The notes under the pieces are model-generated. The model did not search any database. It saw only the letters and a program-made list of their open reading frames with translations, and had not been told where the DNA came from. From the NCBI GenBank assembly GCA_013360295.1, contig JABWCL010000009.1, positions 1-64,000 on the forward strand: 64,000 nt of DNA, given 5' to 3'. Within the stretch, counting starts at the first letter, position 1, and every line of letters starts with the position of its first letter. This document shows positions 53,738 through 64,000 of the stretch, one piece after another. The translations under genes were made by a program, and so were the position numbers. Source of the DNA: Ignavibacteriaceae bacterium. GTDB taxonomy: Bacteria; Bacteroidota; Ignavibacteria; Ignavibacteriales; Ignavibacteriaceae.

Positions 53738-56008
53738 TTATTTAACAAGGAGCATCTTATTGCGTTTTACAAAATTACCAGCTTTCATTTCATAAACATA
53801 CGTGCCACTTGATATTCCGCCCGCGTTGAATGATACTTCATGCGCTCCCGCGGAGATATTCTCGTTTACCAGCTCGGAGATTTTATTCCCCAGTACATCG
53901 TAAACACTAATCTCCACAAATGAAGCTTCTGGAAGATAATATTTGATTTTAGTTGAAGGATTAAAAGGATTCGGGAAGTTAGCTCCGAGATCGTACTGCA
54001 TTGGTGTTGTTACTTCGACCTCAACTATATCTGAGAAACTAAATGAACCATCAAAATCTACCTGTTTCAATCGATAAAAATATGTACCAACCTTCGAGAC
54101 TTCATTATCAGACCAGGTGTATCTCTGAGTTTCGGTTGTATTTCCAGCGCCTGCGATGAAACCAACTGTTTCCCAAACCGCGATCTGTGAACCAACACGC
54201 ACTTTCCGTTGTATTTCAAAGCCACGATTGTTGGTTTCAGTAGCGGTCTGCCAGTCTAATCTGATTCCGCTTGCATCTAAACTGTAGGTAAAGGCAGCAA
54301 ACTCAACCGGAATCTCATCCTCAACAGTCAGGTTCACAGTTCTATAATGAACCGGTATTCCATTTGGTCCTTCCCCTTTAATCCTGAGTGTATATGAACC
54401 AAGCGTAACACTTCCACTTGTTTTGATCCTTAACTGAGCTGATCCGGGATAACTGCTAACGACATTCCCTGCCGGGAAGTCCAAAGTGATCGTACCATTT
54501 GTGGGAGTTGGCGTTACCGTGGCAGAAAAAGCTACTGTCTGATCATACAATTTAACAGATGGAACTGATACGGTCACAAAGTCTGAATCGTTATTATTCG
54601 CAATCTGAACTAATTGTGGATTTGCAAGCATCGCATAATCAGGGAAATAGGCTGTATAACTGCCGTAATTATTATTTCTGAAGTCTGTCCATGCAAGCAT
54701 TCCAACAGATCCTTTTGACATTATTGCGTCATAATCACCCTGATAAGCGGGCGCGCTTCCTGAAGAAGAGAGCTTTGTTTTAAATGTCCTGTTGGTAATT
54801 CTCTGATTTGGTTTAAAAGTTACACCACCATCATCTGAATAGGTTGCATAAACGTCCATTGAATCACTGGAGGGAACCAGACGGGAATCGTAGAATTTTA
54901 CATATAAACGACCGTTCTCTTTATCACACCAGATTGCCGGAAAGAAATTATGATTGGCAACAGTATTAGCATCATCATTAACCGTAACGGGATCCGACCA
55001 GGTCGCTCCCTGATCAGTGGAAAACCGGCTGAAAATGTCGGGTTTATTTCCGCTTCCGGCAGGCAGATTTGATGCATATACGAGGTAGAGTCTGCCACGG
55101 AAAGGACCGTAGCTATTATCAGCGGCGATCATCGGGTAAGGGCGTGTTCTCATTCCGTTCACTGTGGATCTTCCTGATAATTCAGTTCCAATCACATTGG
55201 AAAACTGTCTCTGGGATTTCTGAGTGAATGAGGTTCCTCCGTTAGTCGATAACCAAAATGTATAGGTGCCTAATGCATTTGATCCAGAGTGGGTAACAAC
55301 ATAAACGCAGCCACCCGGCACATCAGTTCCTCCGGTAACGTTGGGGCCTACAGCGACCATCATCCCCGGCAGGGCTTGCGGTGACAAAGTAGCTGTAGTC
55401 TGCCATGTCGCACCAAAATTCGTACTTCTTGAAAAATTACCAACCGATCCGCTTGCGGTCATTGTCGAGTAGACGTAGTTAGCGTATGGACCGCTTGTCT
55501 GATCCGCGGCAATCCAGTTTTTATCAACTCCTGCGATTGCGGTCACGGCCGCACTCCAGGTCGCTCCGTTATCAGTAGAACGCATGACTTTACATCCGGT
55601 TATACCGCCAAACATTGTTTCATAATATAGATTTCCAAGAGAATCATATGCCGTGACCGGATCTCCGTTCACGCTGATCCCAAAATTCGGCACCGAAGAA
55701 ATCCAATCGTGACCGTTAGTCGTCCTGTAGGCAGTATTAATATTATAGGCTGCAAACGACCATAATGGATTTAATGGATTCATAGAAAAATGTGGTTCAG
55801 CACTGGCTGTACCCATATCAAAATTATCGTAACCATTAATTGTAATTACCGCCTCCAATCCCATTGGCTGGGGTACGATATTAGTAAACTTTCCCGGGTA
55901 AGAATCAAAGTTCGGATTATCATTCCCGTCTCCATCATCCTGGGCAAATACTACCGCCGAGAAAAGAAAAATAATGATGAAAAATAGAAACCTGTAATTA
56001 TGTTGCAT
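53738..56008 (-). CDS. T9SS-secreted beta-propeller protein with Asp-box (BNR) repeats
   Basis: 756 residues: signal peptide (about 1-22, ending VVFAQ), a sialidase-type propeller with several Asp-box repeats (RSTDNGATWS, RSTNFGATWQ, STNGGTSFTQ, FSTDQGATWS, YSDDGGVTFK), an Ig-like region, an Fn3-like region (EFAAFTYSLDASGIRLDW...YTWSDNEVS), and a T9SS type-A sorting domain (NFPNPFNPSTKIKYY...KRNKMLLVK). The propeller resembles sialidases but the arginine triad cannot be confirmed, so enzymatic activity is not claimed. The GTYVYEMKAGNFV tail is typical. It follows the corrinoid protein gene by 34 bases, with AAGGAAGAGG before its ATG. Confidence 0.87.
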   Translation of the reverse strand: MQHNYRFLFFIIIFLFSAVVFAQDDGDGNDNPNFDSYPGKFTNIVPQPMGLEAVITINGYDNFDMGTASAEPHFSMNPLNPLWSFAAYNINTAYRTTNGHDWISSVPNFGISVNGDPVTAYDSLGNLYYETMFGGITGCKVMRSTDNGATWSAAVTAIAGVDKNWIAADQTSGPYANYVYSTMTASGSVGNFSRSTNFGATWQTTATLSPQALPGMMVAVGPNVTGGTDVPGGCVYVVTHSGSNALGTYTFWLSTNGGTSFTQKSQRQFSNVIGTELSGRSTVNGMRTRPYPMIAADNSYGPFRGRLYLVYASNLPAGSGNKPDIFSRFSTDQGATWSDPVTVNDDANTVANHNFFPAIWCDKENGRLYVKFYDSRLVPSSDSMDVYATYSDDGGVTFKPNQRITNRTFKTKLSSSGSAPAYQGDYDAIMSKGSVGMLAWTDFRNNNYGSYTAYFPDYAMLANPQLVQIANNNDSDFVTVSVPSVKLYDQTVAFSATVTPTPTNGTITLDFPAGNVVSSYPGSAQLRIKTSGSVTLGSYTLRIKGEGPNGIPVHYRTVNLTVEDEIPVEFAAFTYSLDASGIRLDWQTATETNNRGFEIQRKVRVGSQIAVWETVGFIAGAGNTTETQRYTWSDNEVSKVGTYFYRLKQVDFDGSFSFSDIVEVEVTTPMQYDLGANFPNPFNPSTKIKYYLPEASFVEISVYDVLGNKISELVNENISAGAHEVSFNAGGISSGTYVYEMKAGNFVKRNKMLLVK

Positions 56009-57908: not shown

Positions 57909-58634
57909 TTAATTGCCTGCAATTAAAAAATTATATACCAGATATGCAAGATTAATTTGCAGCAAACCGAAACTAATTCCGCTTAACAAATCATATTTTC
58001 TCATTGTTTTCAGATCGTTATCATGTCCGAATGCCGAGTATTGTTCATAATAGCGGTCTGCTTTCAGCTTAGTGTAAGCAGATAATCCTCCGAGGACAAG
58101 AAGGCTCCCCATTAAAATATGTGGGAGATTTGATTTGAGAAATGATATTTCTTTGCCGTAAAGGTTCTCAGGTAGCAACTTTATCACCCCCAACCCGGCT
58201 TGAAGAGAATCGCTAAGAACCCGTCTGTTATAACCGGGCTTTGCCAATAAAAGCCCACTCTGACTCCTTGTAAGAACTAACGGGGTCGACCCCAAATATG
58301 CAGAATTATCGTATACTCTAACATCTGAAGGTTCGGTCCTGAGATAACGTTTTTCGCCCGGATCATATAAAAAAACAAATGACGAATCGCAGCCGGGAAA
58401 AGTTATTGTATCTTTGCTAATTATCCCCCAGTCATTTATTTTTTCTCTTATATAGAAAATGTGAGTGCCCGGAGAAACACGAAAGGATAATTCGTCACCG
58501 GTTTTTACCGAATCAGCAACCTCCACAGAGTAACTCTTAGAGAACTTAAAACGGATAGTATTAAAACAATCCTGTGCATTTATTGTATCAGCGTATACAA
58601 TAAGAAAAACCAATATCAGACTACGGTAAATCAT
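57909..58634 (-). CDS. Signal-peptide protein with PEGA-like region and C-terminal membrane segments
   Basis: About 241 residues from the ATG at 58634 (MIYRSLILVFLIVYADTINAQ), which gives a signal peptide; a start 17 codons further up would overlap the propeller gene by 65 bases. A PEGA-like surface-associated motif is visible in DVRVYDNSAYLGSTPLVLTRSQSG...AKPGYNRRVL. Near the C-terminus are two hydrophobic stretches (LPHILMGSLLVLGGLSAYTKL; LLSGISFGLLQINLAYLVYNFLIAG). No enzymatic motif. It overlaps the propeller lipoprotein gene by 14 bases. Function unknown; probably an envelope partner of the two proteins encoded upstream. Confidence 0.75.
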   Translation of the reverse strand: MIYRSLILVFLIVYADTINAQDCFNTIRFKFSKSYSVEVADSVKTGDELSFRVSPGTHIFYIREKINDWGIISKDTITFPGCDSSFVFLYDPGEKRYLRTEPSDVRVYDNSAYLGSTPLVLTRSQSGLLLAKPGYNRRVLSDSLQAGLGVIKLLPENLYGKEISFLKSNLPHILMGSLLVLGGLSAYTKLKADRYYEQYSAFGHDNDLKTMRKYDLLSGISFGLLQINLAYLVYNFLIAGN

Positions 58635-59760
58635 ATGCCTCCAAGAAATAATTATCATAACCAACAAAAAGCTGACCGTTATCAATAACCGGAGTTAGTC
58701 TGACCCTCCCATCAAAATTAAGAACTTTAATTACTTGTCCACTATTTTTCTCGACTATGAATATTTTTCTGTCAAGATTGGGATATAAAAGAAAATTACC
58801 GGTAACAAGTGGGGCTGCGTTTATTACGCCGCCGTAATTATGCTGCCATAGCAATTTACCGGTCAAGAGGTCGAGGCAAAAAATATCTCCATTCAAAGTT
58901 CCAAAATAAACGCGTTTCAAGTCGGACGAAATATAACTGTCGATCCTGCCGCCGGAATTAAACGTCCACTGCAGAATTTCATCCTTAACTACGTAAACTG
59001 TCCCTGTATAATCAGATGTAATTATTGCTCCATCCTTTACTGATAAATTCCCAAGTGGTGATCCGGATAGAGAAATTTTTAATTCAGTTTCGCCGGTTTT
59101 GTAGTTAAAATATATTAATTCCCCTGAATCAGTACCAAAAAGGAGATAATTTTTCTCCAGGAATAAGTTCGAATTGTTCCGCAGTTTTAGTTTTTTCGTC
59201 CAGATAATATCTCCTCTAAAGTTAGTTTTTATCACACTACCTTCTGTCGTAAGACAAAAAACCATATCATCCGCCAGGACTGGTACTGATAATACCTTCC
59301 CTTCAATCTCAATTTTATATAATTCAGTTCCCTTGTCGTAATCGTAAAAGATTAAAAGTGTTTGATTCTGATTCAGTTTTACCAGAGGGAAAATCACAAT
59401 ATTTTTATAAATCAGTGGTGCACACTGAATGGAGCCTTTATACCGCAAATACCCGATTCGCTTCCCGGTTTGTCTGTTAAACGAATATATCCTGCCGGAA
59501 AGGTCCGAAACAAATACTGCTTTCTCTGTCGTTACAACCGAGTTGAACCCAAGGTTTCCATTCGTTTCACTCCGCCATCGTGCAGTAAAAGTATCCGGTA
59601 TTAAAGAATCAATAAAAAAATCGCGTGACTCGTTGATACCAAACTGAACTGCTGTACTTTTTGAATGATCGTATGCATTCTTAATTCCTGATGCAGCGCA
59701 TCCTGAAAGGAAGATAAACAAAAATATTGAGGTTATTATTCTACTAATATTCTTTTTCAA
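58621..59760 (-). CDS. PQQ-like beta-propeller lipoprotein
   Basis: 379 residues from TTG, whose last two bases form part of the stop of the previous gene (TTGA). Lipobox FLSGC (Cys21). The body has PQQ/YWTD-like blades: SDLSGRIYSFNRQTGKRIGYLRY, VYFGTLNGDIFCLDLLTGKLLWQH, DRKIFIVEKNSGQVIKVLNFDG. The layout resembles BamB, which helps assemble outer-membrane barrels, and the gene sits directly after one encoding an Omp85-like barrel; a BamB role is plausible but not shown. No PQQ-binding catalytic residues are claimed. Confidence 0.82.
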   Translation of the reverse strand: MKKNISRIITSIFLFIFLSGCAASGIKNAYDHSKSTAVQFGINESRDFFIDSLIPDTFTARWRSETNGNLGFNSVVTTEKAVFVSDLSGRIYSFNRQTGKRIGYLRYKGSIQCAPLIYKNIVIFPLVKLNQNQTLLIFYDYDKGTELYKIEIEGKVLSVPVLADDMVFCLTTEGSVIKTNFRGDIIWTKKLKLRNNSNLFLEKNYLLFGTDSGELIYFNYKTGETELKISLSGSPLGNLSVKDGAIITSDYTGTVYVVKDEILQWTFNSGGRIDSYISSDLKRVYFGTLNGDIFCLDLLTGKLLWQHNYGGVINAAPLVTGNFLLYPNLDRKIFIVEKNSGQVIKVLNFDGRVRLTPVIDNGQLFVGYDNYFLEAYDLP

Positions 59761-62549
59761 AAGTCGTAACCGAAGAAAAACTGGTAAAATAGCCCTTCCT
59801 GAAAAGTCGTGAGGCGGTTTTGTATCTTTTTCCCAACGTCATACCTAAGAACAAGGATATTAAATAGATTAAAGCGAAGACCCGCGCCAATACTTCCAAG
59901 AGATTCTTTATATTCATCATCCCATGCACCACCGACATCACAAAAGACACCGGCACGAATTCCGTATAGTGAGAGATCCAAAAAAGGGAACTTGATTTTT
60001 ATATTATCAATTACCGGAATTCTTGCTTCAACAGATGAAATCCACATCTTTTCTCCCCTGATACTCCACCTTGGCCAGCCTCTGAGATCCCAGCTTCCCC
60101 CCATAAAGTATCTTCTGGCTTCTTTACCTTCATTGAAGTATAGAGACAACCGGAACGCGATATTTGATCGCAAGGTTATTCGCTGATAATACCTGAGATC
60201 CGTAATCAATGTGTAATAATTCACATTACTGTATTTAACATCAGTAGTATACCCAATCTGGAAGCGATAACGTGTTCCGTCCAAAGGACCGGTCAGATAC
60301 CAGAGAGAATTATCAAAAACGTATGCGATGGAGTTGCTTACCAGAAGCGCTTTCCTTTCAATGATTCCCGAGACGACCTGTTTGTCCGAATTCGCGATTG
60401 TAGCATCTATCTCCAGCCGATCAAAACGTGAAAAAGGAAACTGCATTATGAAGTAACTCCCGAAACTGCGTTCATAATAGTATTCATCTGAATCCCGGAT
60501 ATCATACCTTCTACCGCTGAAATTAAAAATACCATATCCGTGGTTTGCGCGGCTACCCATAGAGAACCGTGAGAGTGCCAGGTTGAAGCTCTGAAGAAAA
60601 TCGGACTGCACCTGGGCAGTATTATAAATAAGGAAAAAGTAATTATCGTCTCCAAACAAATCGCTGAGAGAAAACAATGCCCCGCCGCGAGTACCAAAAA
60701 CAGGATCAGTGCTTATCTGGCTTTGAGCGTAGTCGAGTGTATATTCCTTTTCATAATTCAGCACCTGGCGCTCTGAAGTTAAAAGGTAAAATTTTTCATC
60801 CCAGGGTTCCCCTATACCAGTATAATTGATATTATCAGTTTCATTATGACTCTTATCTAATTCAGTTTTATAAATACTGAATGTTAAATTTTCGAATCCG
60901 GAATAAAATAGTTCTCCTTTACTAATAAACGGATTAAAGATGCTGGATATGTATCTTGTCGCCCGTTTTATTCCGGAAGTTTCACCACCGGGATATTTTG
61001 TGTAAAATAAATTCCTTATGGAATCTTTTTCTCCAACGAAATAAAGAGTTGAATCCAGCTTATTGTAAAAAGGCTGAATGCAATTCCAACTCATATTTGT
61101 AATGTATCGGATGTTACCATTAGTGCTATTAAGTTCGAACAGGTTCGTAGCTCTTTCGTTTCTCCCGGCAGATCTGTCTGAAGCAAATAATACCAGATCC
61201 GGGTCCGCGCCATAAACAGGATCAATATCATAATAATAATCATTTGTCAGCCTTCTCTCTTGACCTGATTCCAGATCGAGTTCAAATATATCTCTGAATC
61301 CTTTCTGATCAGAAGCGCTGAACAATAGCTTATTTCCGTCAGCTGAAAAAGACGGACCTGAAATACTTAACAGGTAGCTTTTTGAGAAATTTAGTACTAT
61401 CTCATCCTGCTCGATGGAATAAAAATAGATAACATCATTCGGCCCTGATTTAGAAACAAATGAAATGATACCTCGTTCGGAGATATCAAGTTTCACCTCA
61501 AAGACGTGAAATGTTTCAAATTCCTTCGATTTTTCTCCCCTGATCACCAGTTTTCGATCGCCATATTTCCCTTCATCATCTTTCTCAACAAAATAGAGGG
61601 ATGTGTATCCGTCAATATTCGCGATGAAGTAAACCCTCTCGGAATTATATTTTTTATAGTAAACAGGAGTAAAAGCATAACCTTCATTAATCAATCTCAC
61701 AGAATTTTCCTGAAAACTTATGCCCCCGCCGACTTTGGGGAAATATAGGCGCTTAAGATCAGTCATCCACTCTCTGTCAATCTCTTCAAGTTCTTTCCCC
61801 AGGACGTAGACTAATAGTTCTCTAAAATTCTCATACATCCAGAAATCGTCAACCATCTGCATAACTTTCGCGTGACCATAATTTCGGCGAACAAAATGGA
61901 GGAATGATTCACCGGCTTTATACATTAGGTACGAACCGTAAATGCTGTTGATTTGGCTGAGACCCGGGAAATAATTATTAATAACAGCATCCCTCATAAC
62001 CATATCAGCCTGCGAGTCCCATTCAGATGACAAATACTCCGCTAAACCCTCGACAAACCACAATGGCGGCATACGGTCAGAGTATAACCGATGATCAGAA
62101 AGGATCTTCATGAGTTTGGTGGTCATGAATACGTGAACCAATTCATGTTCAATTACATGTTTAAATCTGTCCAAAGAACCACTGAATGGAATTACCACTC
62201 TCCCCTTAATAAACTCAAAGAAGCCGCCTACTCCTTCAGGAATAAATCCTGGAGTCGTGTTGGTCTGTTCAAAGTGATGATGGGTATTATAAAATATAAG
62301 CGGAACCCTGCGAGTGAAGATATGAGCGAATTCCTTTTTGTATTCCTGATAAGCATCTTCGGCATAACGGGCACCGATCGCAGCAATTTCATCCATTTCC
62401 CCGTAGAAATAAATGTCGAAGTGTTCTGTACGAATCACCTTCCATTCGAATTTTTCATACTGCACCTTATTTCTACCAAAGAAATAGAACTGCGAAAAAA
62501 GCTGAGGTGTAAGGAGAAGAAAAATAAAAACGAAAAGTAAACTCTTCAA
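59757..62549 (-). CDS. Metallopeptidase - WD40-like propeller - Omp85-like barrel fusion
   Basis: 930 residues from TTG with a signal peptide (about 1-20). Domain 1 (about 30-280) is a gluzincin-type metallopeptidase: HELVH (H135-E136-H139) and the third zinc ligand E167 in WFVEGLAEY, about 30 residues on. Domain 2 (about 285-580) has TolB/PD40-type propeller blades (SADGNKLLFSASDQKGFRDIFELDLESG; DLVLFASDRSAGRN). Domain 3 (about 600-930) is a 16-strand-type outer-membrane barrel with GGSWDLRGWPRW, close to the L6 motif of Omp85 proteins, and a terminal GYDF. All three zinc ligands and the glutamate base are present, so it should be active. Acts presumably at the outer membrane. The three downstream genes are coupled. 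Confidence 0.85.
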   Translation of the reverse strand: MKSLLFVFIFLLLTPQLFSQFYFFGRNKVQYEKFEWKVIRTEHFDIYFYGEMDEIAAIGARYAEDAYQEYKKEFAHIFTRRVPLIFYNTHHHFEQTNTTPGFIPEGVGGFFEFIKGRVVIPFSGSLDRFKHVIEHELVHVFMTTKLMKILSDHRLYSDRMPPLWFVEGLAEYLSSEWDSQADMVMRDAVINNYFPGLSQINSIYGSYLMYKAGESFLHFVRRNYGHAKVMQMVDDFWMYENFRELLVYVLGKELEEIDREWMTDLKRLYFPKVGGGISFQENSVRLINEGYAFTPVYYKKYNSERVYFIANIDGYTSLYFVEKDDEGKYGDRKLVIRGEKSKEFETFHVFEVKLDISERGIISFVSKSGPNDVIYFYSIEQDEIVLNFSKSYLLSISGPSFSADGNKLLFSASDQKGFRDIFELDLESGQERRLTNDYYYDIDPVYGADPDLVLFASDRSAGRNERATNLFELNSTNGNIRYITNMSWNCIQPFYNKLDSTLYFVGEKDSIRNLFYTKYPGGETSGIKRATRYISSIFNPFISKGELFYSGFENLTFSIYKTELDKSHNETDNINYTGIGEPWDEKFYLLTSERQVLNYEKEYTLDYAQSQISTDPVFGTRGGALFSLSDLFGDDNYFFLIYNTAQVQSDFLQSFNLALSRFSMGSRANHGYGIFNFSGRRYDIRDSDEYYYERSFGSYFIMQFPFSRFDRLEIDATIANSDKQVVSGIIERKALLVSNSIAYVFDNSLWYLTGPLDGTRYRFQIGYTTDVKYSNVNYYTLITDLRYYQRITLRSNIAFRLSLYFNEGKEARRYFMGGSWDLRGWPRWSIRGEKMWISSVEARIPVIDNIKIKFPFLDLSLYGIRAGVFCDVGGAWDDEYKESLGSIGAGLRFNLFNILVLRYDVGKKIQNRLTTFQEGLFYQFFFGYDF

Positions 62550-62582: not shown

Positions 62583-63620
62583 TTAACGGGTTAGTTCATT
62601 TTTCAGATAATGAATGTAATCAATCTCGCTTGGGTCTTTTTTAGCAAGAATCGCGGCGTAATAACTTAACCAATCGATTTTAAGTATAAGATCGAGCAGG
62701 CGCTCTTTATATGATGACTGAAAACTTTCTACCTCCACCACTTCAATTCCCTTTGCGCTGATTAGTGAATTTGTAATTTCAAATCGTTTTTTGATTCTTT
62801 CATTATAAGAACTATCGAGGAGGTTAACGACGACGAATGCTCCGGGATTTTCAATGCACTCGAAAGAAATGATTTCATTATGATTCAGTTCAGGATACTC
62901 ATTATGATAGGCCATTTTTTTAGAATTTTCATTCAACTGTCCCTTTAACCTCATCCCTGCTGAATCGGTAGTATCAGAAGCGCTGAAGATTAAAACATGC
63001 CTCCCAAGTATTGCGATTGCCTGAGAGAGTAATTCCTCATTGTAAGAACCATACTCTTCTGATTTTTCTTTCCACATTTTCGTAAGTTTTTCCACAATCT
63101 CGGTCTGATCGGGGATAAGTTTTAACGTTTGGCATAATTTTAATAAAGTAAAAAAACTCTGCCCAATACTAAATCTTGGCTGAAAACCTGGGAACAACGG
63201 GACACAAGTTAGTGAATTTTGTGCTGCTATCTCCATGATTTTCCCCCCTGTTGTAAGACATACGATTTTACATTTCTTTTCGATTCCTTCCTTGAGGGTC
63301 GCAATTGTTTCCTCTGTATTTCCTGAATATGATGATACTATCAGAAGCGTGTTCTCTCCAGCGTGAGACGGGAGCCTGTAGTTCCTTACTATTGTTAGGG
63401 GAAGTCTGAGATCTTTCTGACAAAAATTTCTGAAAAGATTTCCGCTTATTGCTGATCCCCCCATCCCGCTAATTATTATTGAAGAAAAATCAGCCCTGAT
63501 AAGATCAGGAGTTAATGACATATCACGATACCAAGCCGATTTAATCTGCTCGTGATAGTTAAGTAATACATCGTATTGGTTTTCAGGATCGTACTTTGAG
63601 ATTAAGGATGCTATATTCAT
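62583..63620 (-). CDS. Bifunctional phosphoglucose/phosphomannose isomerase (SIS-domain)
   Basis: 345 residues with two SIS domains. N-terminal FSSIIISGMGGSAISGNLFRNF and LLIVSSYSGNTEETIATLKEG are the phosphosugar-binding loops of the archaeal-type bifunctional isomerase family; the C-terminal part has LNENSKKMAYHNEYPELNHNEI, with the catalytic glutamate and histidine, as in that family. It interconverts glucose-6-, fructose-6- and mannose-6-phosphate. It starts 1 base after ptsI, placing hexose-phosphate metabolism with a PTS component. Confidence 0.9.
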   Translation of the reverse strand: MNIASLISKYDPENQYDVLLNYHEQIKSAWYRDMSLTPDLIRADFSSIIISGMGGSAISGNLFRNFCQKDLRLPLTIVRNYRLPSHAGENTLLIVSSYSGNTEETIATLKEGIEKKCKIVCLTTGGKIMEIAAQNSLTCVPLFPGFQPRFSIGQSFFTLLKLCQTLKLIPDQTEIVEKLTKMWKEKSEEYGSYNEELLSQAIAILGRHVLIFSASDTTDSAGMRLKGQLNENSKKMAYHNEYPELNHNEIISFECIENPGAFVVVNLLDSSYNERIKKRFEITNSLISAKGIEVVEVESFQSSYKERLLDLILKIDWLSYYAAILAKKDPSEIDYIHYLKNELTR

Positions 63621-63621
63621 T

Positions 63622-64000
63622 TTAGATTATATTTCGTGTGCGTTGTATTGAATTTTCTTTGAAAAACTTTTTTATGAGTTCCTGTATTTCTTCTTCGTTA
63701 TCAGAAGCAAGGCATTCATTTACGAGAGACTCTGCATTTTTAAGTGAGAATGACCTGATGGTTCTTTTTATGGAAGGAATGGCTGAAGGGCTAACGCTTA
63801 TGATATCAATACCCATTCCGACCAATAGCGGTACTGCAAGCGTATCAGCAGCCATTTCTCCGCAGATACTTACAGGTTTTCCGGATTTTTTTGCCTCACT
63901 GATAATATGATTCAACGACCTGATCACAGAAGGATGAAATTCCTGGTAAAGTGCAGAGACAACATCATTCCCTCTGTCAACTGCCAGAAGATACTGTATG
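63622..64000 (-). CDS. ptsI: Phosphoenolpyruvate-protein phosphotransferase (Enzyme I), C-terminal part
   Basis: The last 125 codons of a gene cut by the window end; the frame is open to position 64000. It reads IQYLLAVDRGNDVVSALYQEFHPSVIR and PVSICGEMAADTLAVPLLVGMGIDIISVSP, the C-terminal signature of Enzyme I including the catalytic cysteine of CGEMAAD. Enzyme I takes phosphate from PEP and passes it to HPr. The ptsI-isomerase pairing suggests either a sugar PTS or a regulatory PTS; no sugar-specific component is visible. Confidence 0.93.
   Translation of the reverse strand, partial: IQYLLAVDRGNDVVSALYQEFHPSVIRSLNHIISEAKKSGKPVSICGEMAADTLAVPLLVGMGIDIISVSPSAIPSIKRTIRSFSLKNAESLVNECLASDNEEEIQELIKKFFKENSIQRTRNII

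Follow-up and report, generated by a model that had tools for sequence, protein, structure and literature searches.

In the survey of Heinz and Lithgow (2014), a WD40-Omp85 subfamily has been described, for which TolB is the nearest propeller and which was likened to a fusion of BamA and BamB (PMC4104836). For PlpD, an experimentally studied fusion of an enzyme with an Omp85 barrel, the enzyme domain has been located in the periplasm (PMC11116518). Proteolysis at the BAM complex is known from BepA, a periplasmic zinc metallopeptidase acting on LptD and BamA (PMC8423444). The BAM complex of F. johnsoniae, a member of the Bacteroidota, has been described in a paper (Nature 2025) that mentions neither BamB nor a propeller or a peptidase subunit (PMC12611786). 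Our literature search for peptidase-Omp85 or PD40-Omp85 fusions returned nothing except the 2014 survey, and because its main text names WD40-Omp85 proteins and never uses the word peptidase, it was fair of the first-pass annotation of the DNA analysed here to call such a combination little studied (PMC4104836).

This DNA, a stretch of 64,000 nucleotides from an Ignavibacteriaceae bacterium (the window), encodes a protein in which a predicted metallopeptidase, a TolB-like propeller and an Omp85 barrel are fused, and next to it a BamB-like lipoprotein. The fusion shares with the WD40-Omp85 subfamily the TolB-like propeller N-terminal to the Omp85 barrel and the absence of POTRA domains, whereas a peptidase domain or a co-encoded BamB-like lipoprotein does not appear in the main text of the survey (PMC4104836). 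As in PlpD and the type Vd patatin-Omp85 architecture (PMC11116518), an enzyme is placed N-terminal to the barrel and, in the fusion presumably, on the periplasmic side. However, PlpD is a lipase with POTRA and without a propeller, while the fusion has a peptidase and a propeller; neither patatin nor POTRA was matched in it, and its N-terminal domain has a peptidase fold. The BAM complex together with BepA resembles the proposed module in that an Omp85 barrel, a BamB-type lipoprotein and a periplasmic zinc metallopeptidase come together (PMC8423444), but there they are separate proteins and BamA carries POTRAs. Moreover, BepA belongs to the M48 peptidases, whereas the peptidase of the fusion is nearest in fold to collagenase, M30 and M1 gluzincins among the matches listed.

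PF00149 is the metallophosphoesterase family. The 'Metallo' subfamily of the 2014 survey rests on PF00149, although its authors speak of Omp85-metalloproteases (PMC4104836), likely a misnomer. This class was rejected as a precedent, because PF00149 is no peptidase family.

Architecture of the fusion protein

The fusion gene is intact: it begins with TTG and lies in an open frame of 941 aa with no internal stops. The following features, all on the minus strand, were assigned to it:

59757..62549, minus strand, coding sequence of the peptidase, propeller and Omp85 barrel fusion, 930 aa (open reading frame, alignment, Pfam, model)
62490..62549, minus strand, probable type I signal peptide, residues 1-20 (by eye and from the alignment consensus)
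61713..62489, minus strand, gluzincin-type metallopeptidase domain (Peptidase_MA_2), residues 21-279 (Pfam, fold match)
62133..62147, minus strand, HELVH, predicted zinc-binding and catalytic motif, residues 135-139
62049..62051, minus strand, E167, predicted third metal ligand (within WFVEGLAEY)
60846..61712, minus strand, TolB-like beta-propeller, residues 280-568 (PD40, fold match to TolB)
59760..60740, minus strand, 16-stranded Omp85 barrel with C-terminal Phe, residues 604-930 (profile, fold, model)
60051..60122, minus strand, loop 6 with LRGW (residues 822-825), about residues 810-833 (alignment, model)

Inspected by eye, the signal peptide shows a hydrophobic run followed by SQ (AQ in homologues) and has no lipobox Cys. 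It is followed by the gluzincin-fold peptidase (about 21-279), the propeller (280-568) and the barrel (604-930), in this order. In an alignment of 30 sequences (identity of the relatives to the window protein 27-55%), Pfam recognised Peptidase_MA_2 in all 30, PD40 in 29 and Omp85 (PF01103) in 20. The AlphaFold2 model calculated from these sequences (mean pLDDT 83.9, pTM 0.83) displays all three domains. Profiles, fold and model thus agree with the first-pass annotation, which had proposed one secreted protein uniting a peptidase, a TolB-like propeller and a C-terminal Omp85 barrel with LRGW, and we consider this architecture practically certain. The HELVH motif and E167 that it had pointed out are present at residues 135-139 and 167, and it would have abandoned the idea if the barrel had a non-Omp85 fold or the peptidase residues were unconserved, neither of which was found. 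H135, E136, H139, E167, R823, G824, E841 and D871 are invariant in 30/30 sequences, and at 27-55% identity the invariance of the four peptidase residues and of R823-G824 is far beyond chance. Mean column conservation amounts to 0.66 for the peptidase, 0.63 for the barrel and 0.49 for the propeller.

The Peptidase_MA_2 score of the window protein itself (25.2) remains below the cut-off of 32.4. Since propeller and barrel matches dominate a fold search with the whole model, the peptidase domain was modelled separately (pLDDT 80.8). It matches collagenase peptidase domains with Z 17.1 over 230 aa at 3.8 A, followed by the M30 enzyme lugdulysin with Z 16.9 and by M1 aminopeptidases with about 14, the matches listed ranging from 17.1 to 13. 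Collagenases, M30 and M1 enzymes are all gluzincins, and as modelled the domain has the fold of clan MA(E); the sequence signature of this clan, HExxH plus a downstream Glu ligand, is present in all 30 proteins. The domain is therefore predicted from its sequence to be active-site-complete, to bind zinc and to act proteolytically. Homology to the M48 peptidase BepA was rejected, because a PF01435 match is absent; M48 peptidases are also missing among the structural matches listed for the domain, which by itself excludes nothing. Two separate M48 frames are encoded elsewhere in the genome.

PD40 is the TolB-type propeller repeat. In the model, the propeller could be aligned to TolB with Z 25.8 over 245 aa at 2.5 A (VIA-align 2), while the TolB equivalog TIGR02800 gave 58.7 bits against a cut-off of 343, so that the assignment is to the propeller fold only. 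A profile of the fusion family also retrieved TolB and BamA chains by sequence.

The barrel and its membrane side

The first-pass annotation had suggested checking the structure prediction, the loop 6 motif and the number of barrel strands. The AlphaFold2 model has 16 strands between residues 604 and 928, and LRGW, which agrees with the (V/I/L)RG(F/Y/W) motif, lies in loop 6 between strand 11 (796-809) and strand 12 (834-853), i.e. at the position known from BamA. Omp85 did not appear in a single-protein Pfam hmmscan of the window protein; the barrel was recovered through the relatives and through a whole-genome search, in which PF01103 scored 38.5 bits against a cut-off of 24. Structural matches of the barrel include BamA of D. 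radiodurans (Z 22.9, 309 aa, 4.1 A; VIA-align 2) and BamA of F. johnsoniae (Z 21.6). Furthermore, the loop 6 R-G, E841 and D871 of the fusion align with the loop 6 Arg-Gly, E and D/E positions of the other Omp85 barrels encoded in the genome.

BamA receives its clients through its POTRA domains. In the fusion, neither Pfam nor the model revealed a POTRA; residues 21-603 are filled with the peptidase, the propeller and a short linker. The protein most probably sits in the outer membrane, and its peptidase and propeller are expected in the periplasm, because in an Omp85 barrel with an even number of strands both ends lie on that side. The earlier statement that the peptidase faces one side of the membrane can thus be kept and, by barrel homology, probably narrowed to the periplasmic side. 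The attribute 'self-inserting' is unsupported, because nothing points to insertion independently of BAM and the same genome encodes a separate BamA-like protein (843-aa frame).

A BamB-like lipoprotein as proposed partner

Two further genes follow the fusion:

58621..59760, minus strand, BamB-like PQQ-propeller lipoprotein, 379 aa, with LSGC lipobox (PQQ_2, TIGR03300, lipobox, linkage)
57909..58685, minus strand, small PEGA-like protein (weak PEGA match), which several relatives encode as third cluster gene

The BamB-like gene, overlooked in the first-pass annotation, is the next one after the fusion, and its start overlaps the fusion stop by 4 bases; such an overlap recurs in relatives, where it most often comprises 13 bases. 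PQQ_2 scores 88 bits on the product, which is the best PQQ_2 match in the genome and the sole one of BamB size. The BamB equivalog TIGR03300 reaches 102.6 bits, below its cut-off of 285.2; among 26 homologues, 25 match this model at E <= 0.001 (best 7.9e-53). All 26 have the lipobox Cys C21, and the lipobox is thus combined with a PQQ_2 propeller. For the PEGA-like product, the PEGA score is below the cut-off, while a homologue (L034) reaches 39.4 bits against 20.8.

A profile built from 26 of the BamB-like neighbours was searched across 148 genomes of the phylum. A full-length, strong match (E at most about 1e-64) was found in 34 of the 35 genomes with a short-type fusion and in none of the 113 others (Fisher p about 1e-32, a value that ignores relatedness). 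In the 35th (G096), the matches are weaker and split, and they lie beside the fusion on the same contig. In 33/34 genomes both genes are adjacent on one strand. As the profile was partly made from these neighbours, their own scores are partly given by construction, with about ten genomes lying outside it; the matches of neighbours outside the profile and the absence of matches elsewhere are not. Both genes are missing from six genomes (G009, G035, G078, G120, G011, G016) of families f2, f3, f9 and f12, other sampled members of which carry both, hence kinship alone does not explain the co-occurrence. The BamB-like gene is a near-obligate partner gene of the short-type fusion. BamB proteins face the periplasm. 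A physical complex between both products is proposed.

Upstream of the fusion, positions 62583-63999 (minus strand) contain a SIS/phosphoglucose-isomerase-like gene and the C-terminus of a PTS enzyme I-like protein; several relatives (L033, L009, L010, L005) have these genes at the corresponding place. The protein encoded at 53738-56008 (minus strand) combines BNR repeats with a C-terminal sorting domain of the T9SS (PF18962).

Short type, long type and pseudo-peptidases

The three-domain architecture represents a family with short and long types, and the family as well as the co-occurrence survey covers this phylum. A tree of 51 relatives places the short, BamB-linked proteins in one clade (SH-aLRT 99). 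The genome under study also contains a long paralogue on another contig (C72; L037 4550-7717) with 1056 aa and 27% identity to the window protein, which has peptidase and PD40 domains, HExxH and LRGF, and in whose barrel, by alignment, R-G, E and D are retained. A BamB neighbour is absent beside this paralogue and beside the other long-type loci examined. A third HExxH protein of this genome (L084 717-3764, minus strand, G000 contig C34, frame of 1016 aa) has a propeller-like middle part and a diverged barrel-like end with IRAY in place of the RG motif. Among plasmids, the sole match was a barrel-less copy on pSR116 of Salinibacter ruber (L060 5944-7845); its product, annotated as basic secretory protein-like, consists of peptidase and propeller.

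Six long-type proteins (L046, L047, L073-L076) from six sampled genomes of two families lack HExxH. The site reads, for example, EGxxK, QGxxG or YKxxD, and the Glu ligand is usually gone as well, while full length and the barrel R-G, E and D are kept. They form one clade (support 100) in the tree of 51 relatives, for which a single loss suffices, and are by their sequences natural pseudo-peptidases. The catalytic residues do not vary in the clade of the window protein or in any other lineage sampled.

Possible function of the fusion

How might such a protein work? The BamB-like neighbour and the built-in protease suggest an assembly or quality-control unit with its own protease. The POTRA-less barrel would anchor propeller and zinc peptidase in the outer membrane so that both lie on its periplasmic face, and the co-encoded BamB-like lipoprotein would be the partner of the fusion. 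Unfolded, stalled or mis-assembled outer-membrane proteins might then be received at the surface formed by propeller, BamB-like protein and barrel, and the peptidase would clip those that fail. By analogy with BepA on BAM, we tentatively regard the fusion as an outer-membrane-anchored, periplasm-facing quality-control protease in a BAM-like module, a reading to which we give somewhat less than an even chance. The missing POTRA and the TIGR03300 score well below its cut-off count against it, and quality control could also happen elsewhere, because a BamA-like protein and two M48 peptidases are encoded separately in the genome. A bolder form of the idea, that a second, self-contained BAM-like machine exists beside the standard BamA, with its own proofreading protease, client-binding propeller and BamB and with a related pseudo-protease clade, seems rather speculative.

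A different picture emerges if the barrel is no more than an anchor that keeps the peptidase on the inner side of the outer membrane and has no role in barrel assembly; lipoproteins, secreted proteins or envelope peptides would then be processed there. In PlpD, an Omp85 barrel has been turned into a holder for an enzyme (PMC11116518), and such a role is in line with the absent POTRA and with a peptidase fold that, among the matches listed, most resembles collagenases, M30 and M1 enzymes. However, the near-strict linkage to the BamB-like gene and the conservation of the loop 6 Arg-Gly, E and D even in the clade with dead peptidases argue for a working Omp85 machine, which makes a simple anchor unlikely, though still worth serious consideration.

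The same dead-peptidase clade could be taken to mean that the fusion is an Omp85/BamB-type chaperone or insertase without proteolysis, in which the peptidase fold mainly serves as a client-binding scaffold. Since this monophyletic group from six sampled genomes of two families has lost HExxH and kept the rest, including barrel motif and length, proteolysis is not essential to all functions of the family. For the window protein we nevertheless consider a non-proteolytic assembly factor quite improbable, because the catalytic residues are invariant in its clade and in the other sampled lineages and no domain of the fusion is more strongly conserved than the peptidase.

A surface protease, in which the N-terminal domains would pass the barrel and end up on the outside of the cell as in autotransporters or type Vd systems, would follow an earlier reading of PlpD, and the membrane side had been left open in the first-pass annotation. 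The even strand number together with the Omp85 barrel places these domains in the periplasm, and the partner carries a lipobox, BamB proteins being periplasm-facing. As PlpD itself has been shown to be periplasmic (PMC11116518), surface exposure is very unlikely. Finally, the idea that three genes were joined by chance or through an artefact can be dismissed, since the same order and open frame are conserved in tens of genomes from many families.

Implications for outer-membrane biogenesis

Beyond the first-pass annotation, the analysis adds the linkage to a BamB-like lipoprotein, a family with a short BamB-linked clade, and a long-type clade without HExxH. To our knowledge, quality control at the Omp85 assembly factors characterised so far is left to separate proteases. 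With a protease inside the barrel protein and a link to a BamB-like partner, the coupling between folding and degradation of outer-membrane proteins would become testable in one polypeptide. Moreover, the fusion would be a surprising partner for BamB-type proteins, given that the BAM complex described in this group includes none of them. Thanks to the natural pseudo-protease clade, the roles of catalytic and non-catalytic members can be compared.
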